Shown: piece by piece, positions 49,248-58,230 of the stretch
How the letters are laid out: every line of letters begins with the position of its first letter
Numbering within the stretch: position 1 is the first letter of the stretch
Notes under the pieces: generated by a model
What the model saw: only the letters and a program-made list of their open reading frames with translations
Databases searched by the model: none
What the model was told of the DNA's origin: nothing
Source: Candidatus Nitrosopumilus sp.
Lineage (GTDB): Archaea > Thermoproteota > Nitrososphaeria > Nitrososphaerales > Nitrosopumilaceae
Length of the DNA: 64,000 nt
NCBI RefSeq assembly: GCF_029882185.1
Contig: NZ_JAOULD010000004.1
Span: 1-64,000, forward strand
Reading direction: 5' to 3'
Made by a program: the position numbers and the translations under genes

Positions 49248-50582
49248 TTAGGTTATCGTAACAGTTCCCTGCATCCAAGGATGTAAGGTACAGAAATAAT
49301 CCAATTCTCCTGGTTTTTCAAACTGATAGGACCATGTTTTTCCTGCTTGTATGAACCCTGAATCAAATGAATTTTCCTTGTCAGTTACAGTGTGTATAAC
49401 AAAATCTTGGTTTGTCCATGTAACAGTTGTTCCTGATTCAATTTCTATTGCAAGAGGATCATAGGATTCTATAATGTCAGGACTCCATGAGTCCTTTACA
49501 ATGTCTACTTTGTCTGTCTTTACTTTAGGAACATCACTAACTTTGGTTTCTCCCAAGTTATCATATGAAATTAGTTGTGGTTGCTCCAATGATCTTATCA
49601 AATCTTCTTGCCACTCTATCATGGAGTAACTTCCTTTGTTGTTACTTGGTGTTTGAATCTCAGATAATGATGATGCATCTTCTAACACCTCAATTATTGC
49701 CATGGAGCCACGTTCTTCCTGAATTCCATGAACATGGAACAAATATTTTCCTGGAGTATCCCATGTTGCCTCTATAATTGCAGTATCACCGTTTCCAATC
49801 AGATGAGTTTGTGCATAGTATGGCTCGTTCCATAAAATTCCAGAAGGATATACTTTCATTATTGTACTATGCACATGGAAAGGAGATTGCAATACACCTC
49901 CAACTCCCATTACATAGAATCTGGTTAATTCTCCAGAAACCACTTGAATTGGGTTATCCATGTACTGATTTGCATATCCGTTTACTGGATAAAATTCTGT
50001 AAAGTATTCTAATGCATTATTTGGATCAAACTCACTTAGAGTGAAAAAGTATTCTCGTGCAGGCTCCATTGGACGTATTGCAGGATCAATTATCATTGCA
50101 CCAAACATTCCCATTCTCACATGTTCAGATGTTGGAAATGCATGACAGTGATACATGAACATGCCAGCTTCCTGTGCAACAAAATGATACGTGTATTCCT
50201 CACCAGGCATTATCTGTGGAAAAACACCGTCATTTGTGGAATCATGAGTTCCATGAAAATGGATTGTGTGTGCATAAGGAGTTTCATTTACAAATTTGAC
50301 AGTAACGTCATCTCCTTCTGAAAATCTCAAAGTTGGTGCAGGAACTGTTCCATTATACGTCCAGACTTTAGCTTGGACACCAGGTGACACTTCGATTTCA
50401 GCATCTCGAGCAATTAACGTATATGATAATGTCTTAGGATTAGGATTTGTGAATTTTGGATAAATCTCAGATGAGTCGGCAATGGTTGTTTGGATTTCTG
50501 GTGATTGAATAAATACAACAAATGCAATACCGAATCCAATGATTACTCCCACTGCTACAAACATTGTTGTGTTTTGTTTCAT
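49248..50582 (-). CDS. Two-domain multicopper oxidase (NirK-like) with C-terminal plastocyanin domain
   Basis: A 444-residue exported protein with an N-terminal anchor (about 6-25) and three cupredoxin domains. Domain 1 has H105, H108, H110 (HTIHFHGTHD), H145-C146-H147 (MYHCHAFP), H154 and M159, a type 1 site plus two extra His pairs. Domain 2 supplies FHVHST (H236, H238) and LFHVHGIQEERGSM (H283, H285) and has no Cys. Residues about 370-444 form a plastocyanin domain (H397, C431, H434, M437). Thaumarchaea use such proteins near nitrite/NO chemistry, yet His108 replaces the NirK catalytic Asp. Confidence 0.88.
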   Translation of the reverse strand: MKQNTTMFVAVGVIIGFGIAFVVFIQSPEIQTTIADSSEIYPKFTNPNPKTLSYTLIARDAEIEVSPGVQAKVWTYNGTVPAPTLRFSEGDDVTVKFVNETPYAHTIHFHGTHDSTNDGVFPQIMPGEEYTYHFVAQEAGMFMYHCHAFPTSEHVRMGMFGAMIIDPAIRPMEPAREYFFTLSEFDPNNALEYFTEFYPVNGYANQYMDNPIQVVSGELTRFYVMGVGGVLQSPFHVHSTIMKVYPSGILWNEPYYAQTHLIGNGDTAIIEATWDTPGKYLFHVHGIQEERGSMAIIEVLEDASSLSEIQTPSNNKGSYSMIEWQEDLIRSLEQPQLISYDNLGETKVSDVPKVKTDKVDIVKDSWSPDIIESYDPLAIEIESGTTVTWTNQDFVIHTVTDKENSFDSGFIQAGKTWSYQFEKPGELDYFCTLHPWMQGTVTIT

Positions 50583-52471: not shown

Positions 52472-53101
52472 ATGATAATTAAAGAAAAAAAATTAGAGAA
52501 CATATTGAAAGTTAATTGTGATAAAGAAGGAATCAAAGTAGCTTCTAAGATAATCAACAATGGTGGAATTGTGATATTTCCTACGGATACCGTTTATGGG
52601 ATAGGTTGTGATCCATACAATAAGGCATCTGTAGAAAAAATATACAAAATAAAATCTCGAAATATTTCAAAATCCCTTCCAGTTTTAACATATTCAAAAG
52701 AAACAGCCAAGAAAATTGTTCAATTTGATGAATTTGCAGAAAAAATTGTCGATAAATTTTGGCCAGGACCACTAACAATAATTTTGAAAATTACAGATAA
52801 AAAAATTAAAGAATCATTAAACTTGAAAGATAAAATTGCAATTAGAGTTCCTAATAATAAATGCATATTGGAATTATTGCAAAAATGTAATTTTCTTGTT
52901 GGAACTAGTGCAAATGTTTCAGGAGATTCATCATATACAAATCCAGAAGAGGGTTTGCAGAATTTAGAAGGATATGATGTGTTTGTAGATGGAGGAGTAA
53001 TTTCAGGAAAAGGGGAATCAACAATTATTGAAATTGAAAATAATGAAATCAAAATTATCCGGGAAGGTTCTTTAAGCAAAGAAGAAATTTTACATGTATG
53101 A
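52472..53101 (+). CDS. Sua5/TsaC threonylcarbamoyl-AMP synthase
   Basis: A 209-residue YrdC-domain protein: IFPTDTVYGIGCDPYNKASV, EKIYKIKSRNISKSLPVLTY, KFWPGPLTIILKITDK and VGTSANVSGDSSYTNPEEGL. It makes threonylcarbamoyl-AMP from Thr, bicarbonate and ATP, the first step of tRNA t6A37 formation. The Sua5 C-terminal domain is absent, so it is the short TsaC form. It overlaps the THUMP gene by 4 bp and stands near the Cgi121 fusion, the KEOPS side of the same pathway. Confidence 0.93.
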   Translation: MIIKEKKLENILKVNCDKEGIKVASKIINNGGIVIFPTDTVYGIGCDPYNKASVEKIYKIKSRNISKSLPVLTYSKETAKKIVQFDEFAEKIVDKFWPGPLTIILKITDKKIKESLNLKDKIAIRVPNNKCILELLQKCNFLVGTSANVSGDSSYTNPEEGLQNLEGYDVFVDGGVISGKGESTIIEIENNEIKIIREGSLSKEEILHV

Positions 53102-53619
53102 ATCTGATTATTACATGTCCTAGGCATCTTGAACCAGAAACAGAGGAAGAATTAAGAGAAATTTTAGAAGAATTTGGAGATTCAGATGTAAAGATCTCAA
53201 TCACAGACATGTCAGGAATCTTGACAGCAGAGACACATCTTGATCCCATAGAAGTTGTAAGAAAAATCAAAGATATGCTTCTTGATGAGCCATGGAGTAT
53301 TAGATACTGTAAAAGAATCATACCAATACAGAAAGTGATTGAATCAAAAATTGATCAAATAGAAAATAGCACATCAGAATTATCTAATCAAATTTTAGAA
53401 AATGAAACATATAGAATATCAATTGAGAAACGAAATTCAGATTTATCAAGTAAAGAAATAATTACAAAAATTGCAGATAAAATAAAAAATAAAGTATCTC
53501 TTGAATTTCCTGATAAAGTGATATTAATAGAAATTTTAGGGAATAAAACAGGTATTTCCATACTAAAAAAATCAGATATTCTAAGTACAGAAAAAACTAA
53601 ACGAAGTATGTCAGAATAA
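53098..53619 (+). CDS. THUMP-domain RNA-binding protein (Tan1-like)
   Basis: A 173-residue protein beginning LIITCPRHLEPETEEELREI, the start of archaeal THUMP/Tan1-type proteins, with TAETHLDPIEVVRKIKDMLL and a THUMP core (RISIEKRNSDLSSKEIITKI, VILIEILGNKTGISIL). THUMP domains bind tRNA acceptor ends, and Tan1 is the tRNA acetylation adaptor. It is coupled to Sua5 by a 4-bp overlap and converges with the Cgi121 fusion (9-bp overlap). Confidence 0.85.
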   Translation: MNLIITCPRHLEPETEEELREILEEFGDSDVKISITDMSGILTAETHLDPIEVVRKIKDMLLDEPWSIRYCKRIIPIQKVIESKIDQIENSTSELSNQILENETYRISIEKRNSDLSSKEIITKIADKIKNKVSLEFPDKVILIEILGNKTGISILKKSDILSTEKTKRSMSE

Positions 53620-54384
53620 TACTGCTGCTTTCTCTACTAAAATATCAGATAGAGGATTTTTTGAATAAATTGAATCAATGTGTTTTTTTGTTATTTTGAA
53701 ATGTTTTTTGAGATAACCATCATTATTTTTTGAGAATAAATTTACAGAAATAGGGAACAGATCACGATATAATGAATCTAGTGTTTTTTTATTTCCAATA
53801 GCAATCAAAATAAAATTAGATTTCGGTTTAATTCCAACATTTTTTATTGCATCAGAAATTTGTGTAGTTAAAGCAAATCGCATAAGAATATCAGTTTCAA
53901 TTTTATTAGAAAGTAGAATATTATTTTTTTCAGACTCAATAGACAATGAAATTATTTTTTTGAAATGATATGAATTTAAAATATAATTACTAGATACAGC
54001 TTGAAATAGAAGCTTAGGATATTTCTCTCTGAGTGAATCAATGAATTTTACATCAATTGATTTTTGTCCTTTAATTTCCATGGCCTGTATTTGTTTTTTA
54101 GAGAATTCAAAAGTAAATTTTTTTGATGCTCCACCATGGATAATTGGGATTATGCTAACGACATCATTATCTTTAATTTTTGTTAATTTTCCATCCATTG
54201 CAGAAGAATCAGCACCATTAATTGCAATTAACACGTTATCAGTATCAAGTTTAGGAGCACTTTCTGGTTTTAATTCAGGTAGTAAATTGATCAATTCTTG
54301 AATAGTGATATCAGATTTATCAATTTTTAGATGTTCTGTAGAAAAAGATTTTTTTGCACCACCTACAAATTTTACAGTAAACAT
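53611..54384 (-). CDS. MoaD/Urm1-like domain fused to KEOPS subunit Cgi121
   Basis: A 257-residue protein of two parts. Residues 1-85 look like a beta-grasp MoaD/ThiS domain: MFTVKFVGGAKKSFSTEHLK, VLIAINGADSSAMDGKLTKI, DNDVVSIIPIIHGG, the last with a GG pair at 84-85. Residues about 90-257 look like Cgi121: LREKYPKLLFQAVSSNYILN, NKIETDILMRFALTTQISDA and IKNVGIKPKSNFILIAIGNK. Cgi121 binds Bud32/tRNA in the t6A complex. The GG is internal, so it is not a free C terminus unless cleaved. Confidence 0.75.
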   Translation of the reverse strand: MFTVKFVGGAKKSFSTEHLKIDKSDITIQELINLLPELKPESAPKLDTDNVLIAINGADSSAMDGKLTKIKDNDVVSIIPIIHGGASKKFTFEFSKKQIQAMEIKGQKSIDVKFIDSLREKYPKLLFQAVSSNYILNSYHFKKIISLSIESEKNNILLSNKIETDILMRFALTTQISDAIKNVGIKPKSNFILIAIGNKKTLDSLYRDLFPISVNLFSKNNDGYLKKHFKITKKHIDSIYSKNPLSDILVEKAAVLF

Positions 54385-54423: not shown

Positions 54424-54777
54424 TTATTCAGTTGTTTCTTTATCAGTCTCAGAAGAAATTTCATCAACAGTTGATTCAACATTCTCAGATGTTTCTACTG
54501 TTTCTTCAATTTCAGCATTTACAGAGATTTCTATTTCAGAAGGTTCTGCGACTTGTTGTTCGATTTTTGAATCTGCAATACGTGCTTGTTTAGCTTTTTC
54601 TTCACGAATTTCTTTTTTAATATATTTTGTAATATATCCTGCAATTTCATTTTTCAAGCCTTTTGAGCGGACAATAGAGATTTGATCTAATGCTTTTTTG
54701 TTTCCAGCAAAATCTTCACCAAATCTAGATTTGTGTCCATTTAGAACCTCATATGAAAGTCGTTTTATTCTATCCAC
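54424..54777 (-). CDS. 30S ribosomal protein S17e with acidic C-terminal tail
   Basis: A 117-residue protein. The first 62 residues are S17e (DRIKRLSYEVLNGHKSRFGE, DFAGNKKALDQISIVRSKGL, KNEIAGYITKYIKKEI). The rest (about 55 residues) is a Glu/Ser/Thr-rich tail (VAEPSEIEISVNAEIEETVE, TSENVESTVDEISSETDKET) not found in typical S17e. It lies 39 bp from the Cgi121 fusion, in the same direction. Confidence 0.92.
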   Translation of the reverse strand: MDRIKRLSYEVLNGHKSRFGEDFAGNKKALDQISIVRSKGLKNEIAGYITKYIKKEIREEKAKQARIADSKIEQQVAEPSEIEISVNAEIEETVETSENVESTVDEISSETDKETTE

Positions 54778-54809: not shown

Positions 54810-55565
54810 CTATATTCCAAGAAATGAATTTGAATTTTTTTCAAGTAAGGAGGTCATTTCGTCAAAGGATTTACCTAGAACTTTTGAAGCACAGAAAATT
54901 ACACTTGGAATAAAGCTAATTTGCCCAGATTTCATTTCAAAACATTTTGAAAACCTCACAGGGCCATCCGTTTCAACAAGGATTTGAGATTCATCAGTTT
55001 TTGATAACAATGCTTGTTTATCATTCGCATAAATCATCACAGGCCCATAGGATACAAAAAAACCCATATCCATAGCTCTTTGAAGTTGTTTTTTACTTCC
55101 ATCAAACCAATGTAACAATGCATGTTTTGTATCATATGAGGTCATCACTTGAAAAACATCATCTAGACTTTTTCTAGAATGAATTGAAACAGGTTTGTTG
55201 AATTTTTCAGCATAAGACAATAATGTTTCAAATATTTGATTTTGTTTTTTGGCATCATCATTTTGATTTACGTATGTTGGATCTAACCCAATTTCGCCTA
55301 TCCCGTATATACAATCATGCTTGCTTTCAATTAGATTTGAAATATTTTCAATTCCTTCATTTGCACATTCTGGGTGAATTCCAATAAAAGGCAATACTAG
55401 ATTACTTTTTTCTGCAAGATCCAAAGTTTGTAAGGAATTCTTGTAATCCATAGATACACAACAGGCTTTGATTTTCAAATATTCCATTTGTTTTAAGGTA
55501 AATTCCATATCAGAAACATAAGCAGGATCAGATAAATGAATATGAGAATCAAAATACCAAGTCAT
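54810..55565 (-). CDS. TatD-family metal-dependent hydrolase
   Basis: About 251 residues from the ATG at 55565 (MTWYFDSHIHLSDPAYVSDM). It has the TatD metal set: DSHIH, IGEIGLDPTYV, the KPVSIHSRKSLDD motif, ALLHWFDGSKKQ and VETDGP near the end. Such proteins are metal-dependent DNases or deaminase-like hydrolases. The reading frame extends upstream to 55628, but that stretch lies against the histone gene and lacks homology. It converges towards S17e on the same strand. Confidence 0.9.
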   Translation of the reverse strand: MTWYFDSHIHLSDPAYVSDMEFTLKQMEYLKIKACCVSMDYKNSLQTLDLAEKSNLVLPFIGIHPECANEGIENISNLIESKHDCIYGIGEIGLDPTYVNQNDDAKKQNQIFETLLSYAEKFNKPVSIHSRKSLDDVFQVMTSYDTKHALLHWFDGSKKQLQRAMDMGFFVSYGPVMIYANDKQALLSKTDESQILVETDGPVRFSKCFEMKSGQISFIPSVIFCASKVLGKSFDEMTSLLEKNSNSFLGI

Positions 55566-55660
55566 TTCTTTATCAATTATTGAAATAGTCTGTATAAATC
55601 GATTCCTTAGTGATATTTTTTCACTCATTATCTTTTTTCGGAAAAAACCAAAACAAATTC

Positions 55661-55921: not shown

Positions 55922-55993
55922 GGTACTCTGGCAGAACGGTTATGCGTGAGCCTGCAAAGCTTATACAAGGGGGTTCGACTCCCTCGGGTACCT
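55922..55993 (+). tRNA. tRNA-Cys (GCA)
   Basis: The acceptor GGTACTC pairs with GGGTACC, with U as discriminator (canonical for Cys). The anticodon stem TGAGC/GCTTA closes the loop CTGCAAA, anticodon GCA. The T arm GGGGG-TTCGACT-CCCTC pairs (one G-T). CCA is not encoded and no intron is seen. Its last base is shared with the stop of the neighbouring leftward gene. Confidence 0.95.
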
Positions 55994-56403
55994 TATTCTA
56001 CTATAACTTGACCTTTCATCCAAGGATGAAGAGTGCAAAAATAATCAAATGTCCCAACATCATCAAATGTTAGAGTGTAGGATTCAAAAGGATCCATGTG
56101 TCCACTATCAAATAATTCTGTAGGCTCACCATAAAAACCCGAAGTCACACTGTGAAATGCTGAATCTTGATTTACCCATGTAACTTGTTTTCCTGAATCA
56201 ATTACAATTACAGAAGGAATGTAACATCTATCAATTTCTTCACATCCGGGGCGGGACACTTTTGTAGGCATTATAATATCGCCTTTGACAACCAATTTTT
56301 GTTCTTCAGAATTTGTTTCAACGGTAGTATTAGAGAGAATCAATCCAATTATTACAAGAATAATTACTACAATGGTTCCAATTATTGACAATATTTTTAG
56401 CAA
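55993..56403 (-). CDS. Membrane-anchored plastocyanin-like blue copper protein
   Basis: A 136-residue protein with an N-terminal membrane anchor (about 4-24, ILSIIGTIVVIILVIIGLIL) and a single type 1 copper domain. The ligands are H84 (SAFHSVTSG), C123, H126 and M129 (FDYFCTLHPWMKGQ), all in place. Two more cysteines (PGCEEIDRC) may form a disulfide. Such proteins carry electrons between membrane complexes in ammonia-oxidising archaea. Its C-terminal motif closely resembles the plastocyanin domain of the multicopper oxidase at 49 kb. Confidence 0.93.
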   Translation of the reverse strand: MLKILSIIGTIVVIILVIIGLILSNTTVETNSEEQKLVVKGDIIMPTKVSRPGCEEIDRCYIPSVIVIDSGKQVTWVNQDSAFHSVTSGFYGEPTELFDSGHMDPFESYTLTFDDVGTFDYFCTLHPWMKGQVIVE

Positions 56404-56478: not shown

Positions 56479-58230
56479 ATGTCTCAAAACGGAAATGGAT
56501 TACTAGAATACATACCAGGTTCACATACATTACTAGTTCAGAAAAACTCTAGTCAACCTTTAGAAGGATTTACAGAAAATATTCAAGAAAGTATACAAGA
56601 GTATGCTGAAAATTCTAAGAGTGAAGTAGAGAAAGGAAATAATTTTCTTCAATGGGTTTTGACAAGAGTTTTTGAGGCTACAGAGGATGATGCTGCAGAT
56701 GCAATTGTGGATGGAGCAAATGACCTAGGGATTGACGCATATCTTCCAGTGGATTTTTCAGATAATACGATTAGATTATTTCAATCAAAATATGGCACAT
56801 CACATTCGCTAGAAGCAATAGCAAAATTCAAAGAAGATGCTAAGAGATTACTTGCAAAAGATGTAGTTAAAATGAGACCAGAGCTTGCTCAGTTGGTTAC
56901 AAAAATAAAAGAAAAAAAGCTCAAAATAAAATGCTGCTATGTAACAGATCAAGAAGTAGATTATCAAGATGAAATAGTAGAGATTATTGATCAAAAAGTA
57001 ATAATTCAAAAATTATGGGATAGAATAAAAAAACCCGCAGAAGGTAAAAAATCATCAATAAAATTAGAAAGAATGTTAAGGCATGAAAATACAATTTTAG
57101 GGATTTTAAAGCTACGTGAACTTACTGAATTTGTAAGCAAGAATAGAGATTATGTTTTTGAATCAAATATCAGACAATGGATGCAATTTAAGACTACAGT
57201 GAACAAAGGATTAAGAGAAACATTACAAAGTAATCCAGGCAAATTTTTCTTTTACAATAACGGAATTACTATTGTAGTTAGTGACTTTTCAGAGTTGGGG
57301 GAAAACATAATCGAGCTTCACGCACCACAAATTGTAAATGGTGCACAAACATCAAATTCCATTCTTGATCACTCTAAGAGAACAAAGAATATGGATGGTT
57401 CAATGACAGTAACAATAATCAAAGCTGATGATGAACAAGAGCAAAACAATATCACGAAATATAGAAATTCACAAAATTCGGTTAGAGGAAAAGACTTAGT
57501 TTCATTAATGGATTTTCATAAATCAATAAAGTCTCAATTAAAAAATTGCGGTTATTTTTATGAGATTCAAGCAGGTTCGTTTGATACAAAAACTAAATCA
57601 AAACAATCTGAATATGAAGGAGATTCAATATACAACAATTATCTTCCAGATAACCACAAGAAAGTAATCGTTGCCAAAGATGCAATACAGTCACTAGTTG
57701 CAGGAATTGAACAAAGACCAACTGAAGCATATAGTTCGCCAGCTCAGTTTCTTCCAAGAGGAAGTAAATATGATGATGTTTTCAATGACAATCTAAAAGA
57801 CGATTACAGAATTTTGTTATACCCATATCTTGTAAAAGAATTTGCAAAAAGATCACTGAAATATGGGAAACAAGGAGGCCATAAAACAAAAAGATATGCA
57901 ACATTGTTTTTTGTTGCAGTTTATTTCAGAATCCTTCATAAAAAAATTCTTGAATCAAAGGGAGATTTTAAAGGAGACATAAGGAAATTGGAGCCGATAT
58001 TTCGCAGTTTCAAACTTAATTCCAGAATTTTGAAGATAGCAGACGTGGTGGTGACTAAATTTCTTGAAGATACAGTTGTTGATGACGAAATAGAATTAGC
58101 AAACACCAAGCATAATTTTTTCTCTCAGCATGTTTGGAATGATTCAATGCTTAGAGTAATCGATAAGAAAATCAGACAAGAAGAGGATGAAATTTTAGCA
58201 TTGAAAAAACTTGCAAACAATTTATTTTAA
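56479..58230 (+). CDS. AIPR-type protein (abortive-infection phage-resistance family)
   Basis: A 583-residue protein. The N-terminal part (about 40-200) looks like a restriction-endonuclease-type region (DAADAIVDGANDLGIDAYLP, IRLFQSKYGTSHSLEAIAKF: the D...QxK pattern fits a PD-(D/E)xK fold). Next comes the AIPR core: FFYNNGITIVVSDFSELG (about 256), APQIVNGAQTSNSILDHSKR (about 286) and later KYRNSQNSVRGKDLVSLMDF. AIPR proteins are tied to phage resistance and restriction in bacteria. No other defence gene is adjacent. It has its own TATA box. Confidence 0.85.
   Translation: MSQNGNGLLEYIPGSHTLLVQKNSSQPLEGFTENIQESIQEYAENSKSEVEKGNNFLQWVLTRVFEATEDDAADAIVDGANDLGIDAYLPVDFSDNTIRLFQSKYGTSHSLEAIAKFKEDAKRLLAKDVVKMRPELAQLVTKIKEKKLKIKCCYVTDQEVDYQDEIVEIIDQKVIIQKLWDRIKKPAEGKKSSIKLERMLRHENTILGILKLRELTEFVSKNRDYVFESNIRQWMQFKTTVNKGLRETLQSNPGKFFFYNNGITIVVSDFSELGENIIELHAPQIVNGAQTSNSILDHSKRTKNMDGSMTVTIIKADDEQEQNNITKYRNSQNSVRGKDLVSLMDFHKSIKSQLKNCGYFYEIQAGSFDTKTKSKQSEYEGDSIYNNYLPDNHKKVIVAKDAIQSLVAGIEQRPTEAYSSPAQFLPRGSKYDDVFNDNLKDDYRILLYPYLVKEFAKRSLKYGKQGGHKTKRYATLFFVAVYFRILHKKILESKGDFKGDIRKLEPIFRSFKLNSRILKIADVVVTKFLEDTVVDDEIELANTKHNFFSQHVWNDSMLRVIDKKIRQEEDEILALKKLANNLF

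Follow-up and report, generated by a model that had tools for sequence, protein, structure and literature searches.

The window, that is, the whole 64,000-nucleotide stretch of Candidatus Nitrosopumilus sp. DNA that was analysed, carries on its minus strand, at 53611-54384, a gene whose product joins a ubiquitin-like domain (Ubl) to the KEOPS subunit Cgi121. The gene has an ATG start, coding positions 53614-54384 and a stop codon at 53611-53613, and encodes 257 amino acids: residues 1-85 (54130-54384) make up a ThiS/Urm1-type beta-grasp domain ending in IIHGG, residues 98-257 (53614-54093) make up Cgi121, and between them lies a linker (residues 86-97; 54094-54129) that is variable by column conservation in 83 fusions. 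The last three residues of the Ubl half, His83-Gly84-Gly85 (CAT GGT GGA; 54130-54138), mark the ancestral Ubl C terminus, and the cut proposed below would fall between Gly85 and Ala86. The translated chain has its GG inside, not at the end; a C-terminal GG is exposed only if the protein is cut.

Pfam ThiS matches residues 10-85 (E 9.8e-9, above the cut-off), a profile search with the Ubl half led to the solved structures of Ta0895 (6e-8) and T. brucei Urm1 (2e-7), and NCBIfam gives weak MoaD/Urm1/SAMP1 matches to the first half of the fusion. For the second half, Pfam CGI-121 (PF08617) matches residues 117-239 (2.3e-8; 34.7 bits, cut-off 25), the NCBIfam KEOPS Cgi121 family NF011465 scores 6.6e-47 (159.5 bits, cut-off 40), and the profile search led to the structures of PF0523 (1e-8) and MJ0187 Cgi121 (1e-7). 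An AlphaFold2 model of the fusion, built from 13 close homologues, has its best PDB matches in Cgi121 (4ww7_B) and Urm1 (6yuc_G) at moderate confidence (pLDDT 65; below 50 at residues 81-85 and 151-184, and too low to judge the docking of the halves); the beta-grasp fold of the Ubl half is matched by Pfam, by PDB profiles and, at that moderate confidence, by the structure model. The first-pass annotation, which gave no strand, had read the gene, the MoaD/ThiS fold ending in IIHGG, the Cgi121 half and the boundary between the two domains as they are described here, and both the structure prediction and the profile searches of each half bear it out, recovering Urm1 and Cgi121.

The second half is likely a working Cgi121, judging from its sequence, since several of the residues that contact the CCA end of tRNA correspond and are conserved in the fusions. 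The contacts reported for MjCgi121 are F21, Q28, K56, M60, Q71, I72, I76, and G80 (PMC7718258); in the alignment with MjCgi121, Q28, Q71, I72, I76, and G80 correspond to Q128, Q175, I176, I180, and G184 here, K56 and M60 are replaced by N160 and T164, and F21 is unplaced. In the 83 fusions Q175 and I176 are invariant, while Q128 is glutamine in 77, I180 isoleucine in 78, and G184 glycine in 81. The window protein thus keeps five of the eight reported contact residues of MjCgi121/KEOPS (7kjt, 8unk), but MjCgi121 carries no Ubl.

Upstream of the fusion gene, across a 39-base gap, lies the gene for ribosomal protein S17e (54424-54777, minus strand; Pfam 2.7e-17), preceded by a TatD-family DNase gene (54810-55628, minus strand; Pfam 2.5e-47), which by synteny heads a likely operon; S17e and TatD are likely co-transcribed with the fusion gene. 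The Sua5/TsaC and THUMP genes that the first-pass annotation had placed next door are indeed there, both on the opposite strand and convergent with the fusion gene: a THUMP-domain protein at 53098-53619 (plus strand; Pfam 1.9e-10), a conserved neighbour, and Sua5/TsaC, the L-threonylcarbamoyladenylate synthase of the first step of t6A synthesis, at 52472-53101 (plus strand; TIGR00057 8.6e-52).

Gene Order in Relatives and Origin of the Fusion

The Ubl-Cgi121 fusion is already known: it was reported in 2010 by Makarova & Koonin (PMC2948915) as conserved in all Thaumarchaea sequenced by then, together with a Ubl-E1 fusion, and they proposed that SAMPylation regulates KEOPS or that function is coordinated. 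The novelty implied by the first-pass annotation is therefore lost, and what is new here is the evidence on what the join means. The searched text of PMC2948915 says nothing on the fusion being cleaved, proteolysed or a precursor, and the literature searched contains no later paper on its meaning and no other paper that brings Cgi121 together with Nitrosopumilus or Thaumarchaeota. With the same family, domain order and S17e neighbour, the window gene adds one more genome to the published fusion; in contrast to PMC2948915, the two genes are separate in several Nitrososphaeraceae and in other families of the order. Family names are inferred, f1 being taken as Nitrosopumilaceae from its Nitrosopumilus records and f3 as Nitrososphaeraceae from kinship.

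The same two-domain order was sought in relatives and found in a single frame in 87 of the 89 Nitrosopumilaceae genomes with a match, which rules out a frameshift or misassembly as the source of the fusion. Throughout this family the order is TatD-S17e-Ubl-Cgi121 facing THUMP-Sua5, and the same order, whole or largely, with unfused Ubl and Cgi121 genes, occurs in families f2, f3, f4, f67, and f68 of the class (in f68 the THUMP gene is absent from the retrieved stretch). Genus g15 of f3 keeps the Ubl gene with TatD-S17e and has its Cgi121 gene with THUMP-Sua5 elsewhere in the genome. Beyond these families, a few more genomes of the same phylum have adjacent separate genes (loci L037, L171, and L172). 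Inserts of ~540-860 bases, probably an extra gene, lie between Ubl and cgi121 at L098, L099, L119, and L120 (f68), and between S17e and Ubl at L096, L097, L100, and L101.

Outside the Nitrosopumilaceae the two domains are mostly encoded by separate adjacent genes, with cgi121 usually directly 3′ of ubl and stop and start codons commonly overlapping; other unfused cgi121 genes have their ATG out of frame within the CAT-GGN-GGN codons of ubl. The unfused Ubl ends exactly at HGG at 21 loci and 1-9 residues past it at 14 loci. In family f2 (L091-L094) the free Ubl ends in HGG-Cys-Ile/Leu or longer, a short tail that would itself need trimming.

A tree built on concatenated Ubl and Cgi121 sequences unites f1 in a single clade (support 99) in which all genomes but two nested ones are fused; f3 is mixed, f2, f4, f67, f68, f70, and f72 have separate genes (the positions of f4 and f72 are doubtful, on long branches), and one more fused case occurs in f74. 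Separate ubl and cgi121 genes are likely the ancestral state, because of this distribution of fused and separate forms on the tree, and the fusion is a merger of the neighbouring operon pair ubl-cgi121. The tree fits one fusion at the base of Nitrosopumilaceae and Nitrososphaeraceae with later splits, or several fusions, and does not decide between them. In the two exceptions, Nitrosopumilaceae MAGs nested among fused ones, the gene is split directly after HGG: G061 reads HGGA-TGA-TTG (HGGA followed by a stop), and G378 reads HGGG...stop, with an ATG within its HGG codons as the start of the Cgi121 frame, although the latter split is a frame shift in an A homopolymer of a MAG and may be an error.

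As the ancestral genes often overlap or abut, the loss of a single stop or one indel can fuse them, and the fusion might then be a neutral by-product of compact genomes, with the Ubl half a mere passenger in the merger of two operon neighbours. We consider this most improbable, as the Ubl half is strongly conserved in the 83 representatives, HGG above all.

Conservation of HGG at the Domain Junction

Conservation was measured in 83 fused representatives sharing <90% ungapped identity. His83-Gly84-Gly85 is invariant in all 83, and since only 11 of the 257 columns are invariant, these three residues make up more than a quarter of them; the positions that follow are mostly 25-67% conserved, as against 100% for HGG. 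The residue after Gly85 is S, A, T, or G in 73 of the 83 fusions. The HGG codons vary synonymously (His CAT or CAC, Gly several GGN), so selection acts on the protein sequence. The same variation dismisses a reason at the DNA level, namely that the out-of-frame ATG in CATGG serves as the Cgi121 start, as it does in some unfused relatives. An internal start giving free Cgi121 is likewise disfavoured: the first in-frame ATG past HGG is Met102, which is unconserved in alignment A1.

The same kind of Ubl is found in Sulfolobales Urm1 (Saci Urm1, SiRe_1713; 4wwm), where the 4wwm chain carries IIPINHGG; in S. islandicus, where Urm1 is the sole Ubl, a His precedes the C-terminal GG. A link to S17 exists for the Urm1 of Sulfolobales too (PMC2948915), but there the protein is free-standing and Cgi121 is lacking (PMC2948915). 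In yeast, Sulfolobus Urm1 reportedly fails to support tRNA thiolation.

An internal GG that is never cut would have no obvious reason for such constancy, and the invariant HGG, the variable linker and the re-splits together fit a chain freed at the GG, not a permanent linker. The fusion could nevertheless stay intact: its Ubl would then serve permanently for docking or regulation and tie KEOPS to E1, TtuA or the proteasome, so that Cgi121 would carry a built-in "linear urmylation". Invariant Ubl residues in the 83 fusions, N56 and D74 among them, the near-constant single frame in Nitrosopumilaceae and the proposal of KEOPS regulation by SAMPylation (PMC2948915) speak for an intact protein. Such a protein leaves unexplained why an internal HGG is invariant next to a linker that varies, why sister lineages have separate genes and why the gene was re-split at HGG; on this evidence we consider it unlikely.

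Ubl Partners and Possible Processing

The source genome was searched family by family. PF02597 matches two Ubls in it, the Ubl-Cgi121 fusion and the N-terminal domain of the E1 (L082, 1192-2520), in which the internal AGG-S of the Ubl is followed by ThiF; this cognate E1 is the single strong ThiF-family gene of the genome. Its fused Ubl may have to be cut off or may work in cis, and the Ubl-E1 fusion may thus also be a source of free Ubl. Across 61 Nitrosopumilaceae genomes, almost every ThiS-family match above the cut-off lies in a frame of ~245-320 aa (Ubl-Cgi121) or ~410-500 aa (Ubl-E1), by a profile search that could miss a short divergent Ubl. The exceptions are the split Ubl of G061 (89 aa frame), a partial match in a 92 aa frame of G466, and a match in G457 (C1:898634-898870) whose frame, at 814 aa, exceeds the usual Ubl-E1 length.

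Among the other genes of the source genome is one for a PP-loop protein of TtuA/NcsA type whose ends are zinc fingers (TIGR00269 and TtuA_LIM_N above cut-off). Urm1-type Ubls act via a free C-terminal Gly, so this thiolase, if it uses a Ubl here, needs one released from either fusion; for some archaeal Ncs6/TtuA enzymes, sulfide may suffice and no Ubl be needed. An uncut fusion would leave the source of the thiolase's C-terminal thiocarboxylate unexplained if there is no free Ubl. Two Prok-JAB (JAMM) proteins with intact HSHP...SxxD (HxHP...SxxD) motifs are present, and Prok-JAB matches occur in 60 of the 61 Nitrosopumilaceae genomes. Bud32 and Kae1 genes lie near each other on one contig of the source genome. 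MoaE had no match in this genome by family profile search, and the reading of the Ubl as the MoaD of a molybdopterin synthase was rejected on that ground.

The first-pass annotation had drawn from the fusion a role of the Ubl in tRNA threonylcarbamoylation. That link is left unsupported, because the ancestral operon explains the pairing and the fitting Urm1-type enzymes here are the E1 and the TtuA/NcsA thiolase.

An N-terminal Ubl with an internal GG and a fused partner is also seen in MoaX of M. tuberculosis and in DR2607 of Deinococcus. MoaX is cut at Gly82/Ser83, and the cut is needed for activity (PMC4326299); by analogy we count the S, A, T, or G that follows the GG in most fusions in favour of a cut at the same place. 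The JAMM protease DRJAMM cleaves the MoaD-MoaE of Deinococcus (PMC8832034), HvJAMM1 cuts a SAMP1-MoaE fusion, an artificial one in Haloferax, precisely after the Gly in vitro, with JAMM-dependent cleavage in vivo (PMC4443979), and SAMP precursors are processed by a Caldiarchaeum JAMM (PMC6043591). These MoaD-MoaE and SAMP1-MoaE proteins differ from the present one in that their partner is MoaE, of molybdopterin synthesis, and not a KEOPS subunit, and in that their cleavage has been demonstrated, whereas here it is proposed.

Cleavage could also be a regulated switch, the intact fusion being the KEOPS form and the cut releasing Urm1 under stress and changing KEOPS activity. Residual full-length MoaX suggested condition-dependent cleavage (PMC4326299), and SAMP1-MoaE is inactive until JAMM cuts it (PMC4443979), both of which would suit such a switch; unfused relatives manage without it, and we regard it as quite improbable.

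A Probable Cleavable Urm1-Cgi121 Precursor

The explanation that we favour, and consider probable, is that the gene encodes a Urm1-Cgi121 precursor, which a JAMM protease would cleave after HGG. The suggestion of the first-pass annotation that the internal GG frees a modifier is strengthened to this extent: cleavage is supported indirectly by the invariance of HGG, by unfused Ubls that end at or near HGG, by the near absence of free Ubl, by the presence of JAMM proteins and by the Ubl-MoaE precedents, and from these we infer that the chain is cut, what kind of protease cuts it and how the freed Ubl is used. Counting against this reading are the Ubl-E1 fusion as a further possible source of free Ubl, the chance that the profile search missed a short divergent Ubl, the yeast result for Sulfolobus Urm1, thiolases that may use sulfide, and the origin of both re-split genes in MAGs. 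Within a TatD-S17e-ubl-cgi121 operon, ubl and cgi121 would have merged into one frame at the stop just past HGG, giving a precursor of archaeal Urm1 (residues 1-85, ending in HGG) joined to KEOPS Cgi121, and a JAMM/MPN+ protease would cut it after Gly85, post-translationally. The freed Urm1 would be activated by the UbaA-like E1 of the cell and would carry sulfur for the TtuA/NcsA tRNA thiolase, modify proteins, or do both; the freed Cgi121 would join Bud32-Kae1 and recruit tRNA via its CCA end for t6A synthesis.

Eukaryotic ubiquitin is made as the N-terminal part of a ribosomal protein and cut off after GG. The likeness lies in an N-terminal Ubl on a translation-related protein, and the two would work alike if the Nitrosopumilaceae fusion is cut, but the partners are unrelated and the fusions are not homologous. 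On balance we lean towards a broader view of the family, in which the Nitrosopumilaceae would have lost every free Ubl and would make Urm1 only as a cleavable N-terminal part of Cgi121 and of E1, its supply coupled one-to-one with a KEOPS subunit and with a JAMM protease, in parallel to the ubiquitin-ribosomal protein precursors.

The HGG ends of relatives, the invariant HGG and the scarcity of free Ubl lead to a sharp question: is there a Gly85-ended fragment in Nitrosopumilus? If so, tRNA modification by the t6A system and probably by the 2-thiolation system draws on a single precursor, and a core housekeeping protein is a substrate of JAMM proteases in these archaea; Nitrosopumilaceae rank with the ocean's most abundant archaea.

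Other Genes in the Window

An AIPR-family protein of 583 aa is encoded at 56479-58230 on the plus strand (Pfam 4.6e-60; PADLOC AbiU 4.4e-48), a candidate phage-defence gene beside housekeeping genes. A multicopper oxidase with a plastocyanin-like C terminus is encoded at 49248-50582 (minus strand), and a small plastocyanin-like protein at 55993-56403 (minus strand) has a C-terminal motif nearly that of the multicopper oxidase (FDSG...DYFCTLHPWM).
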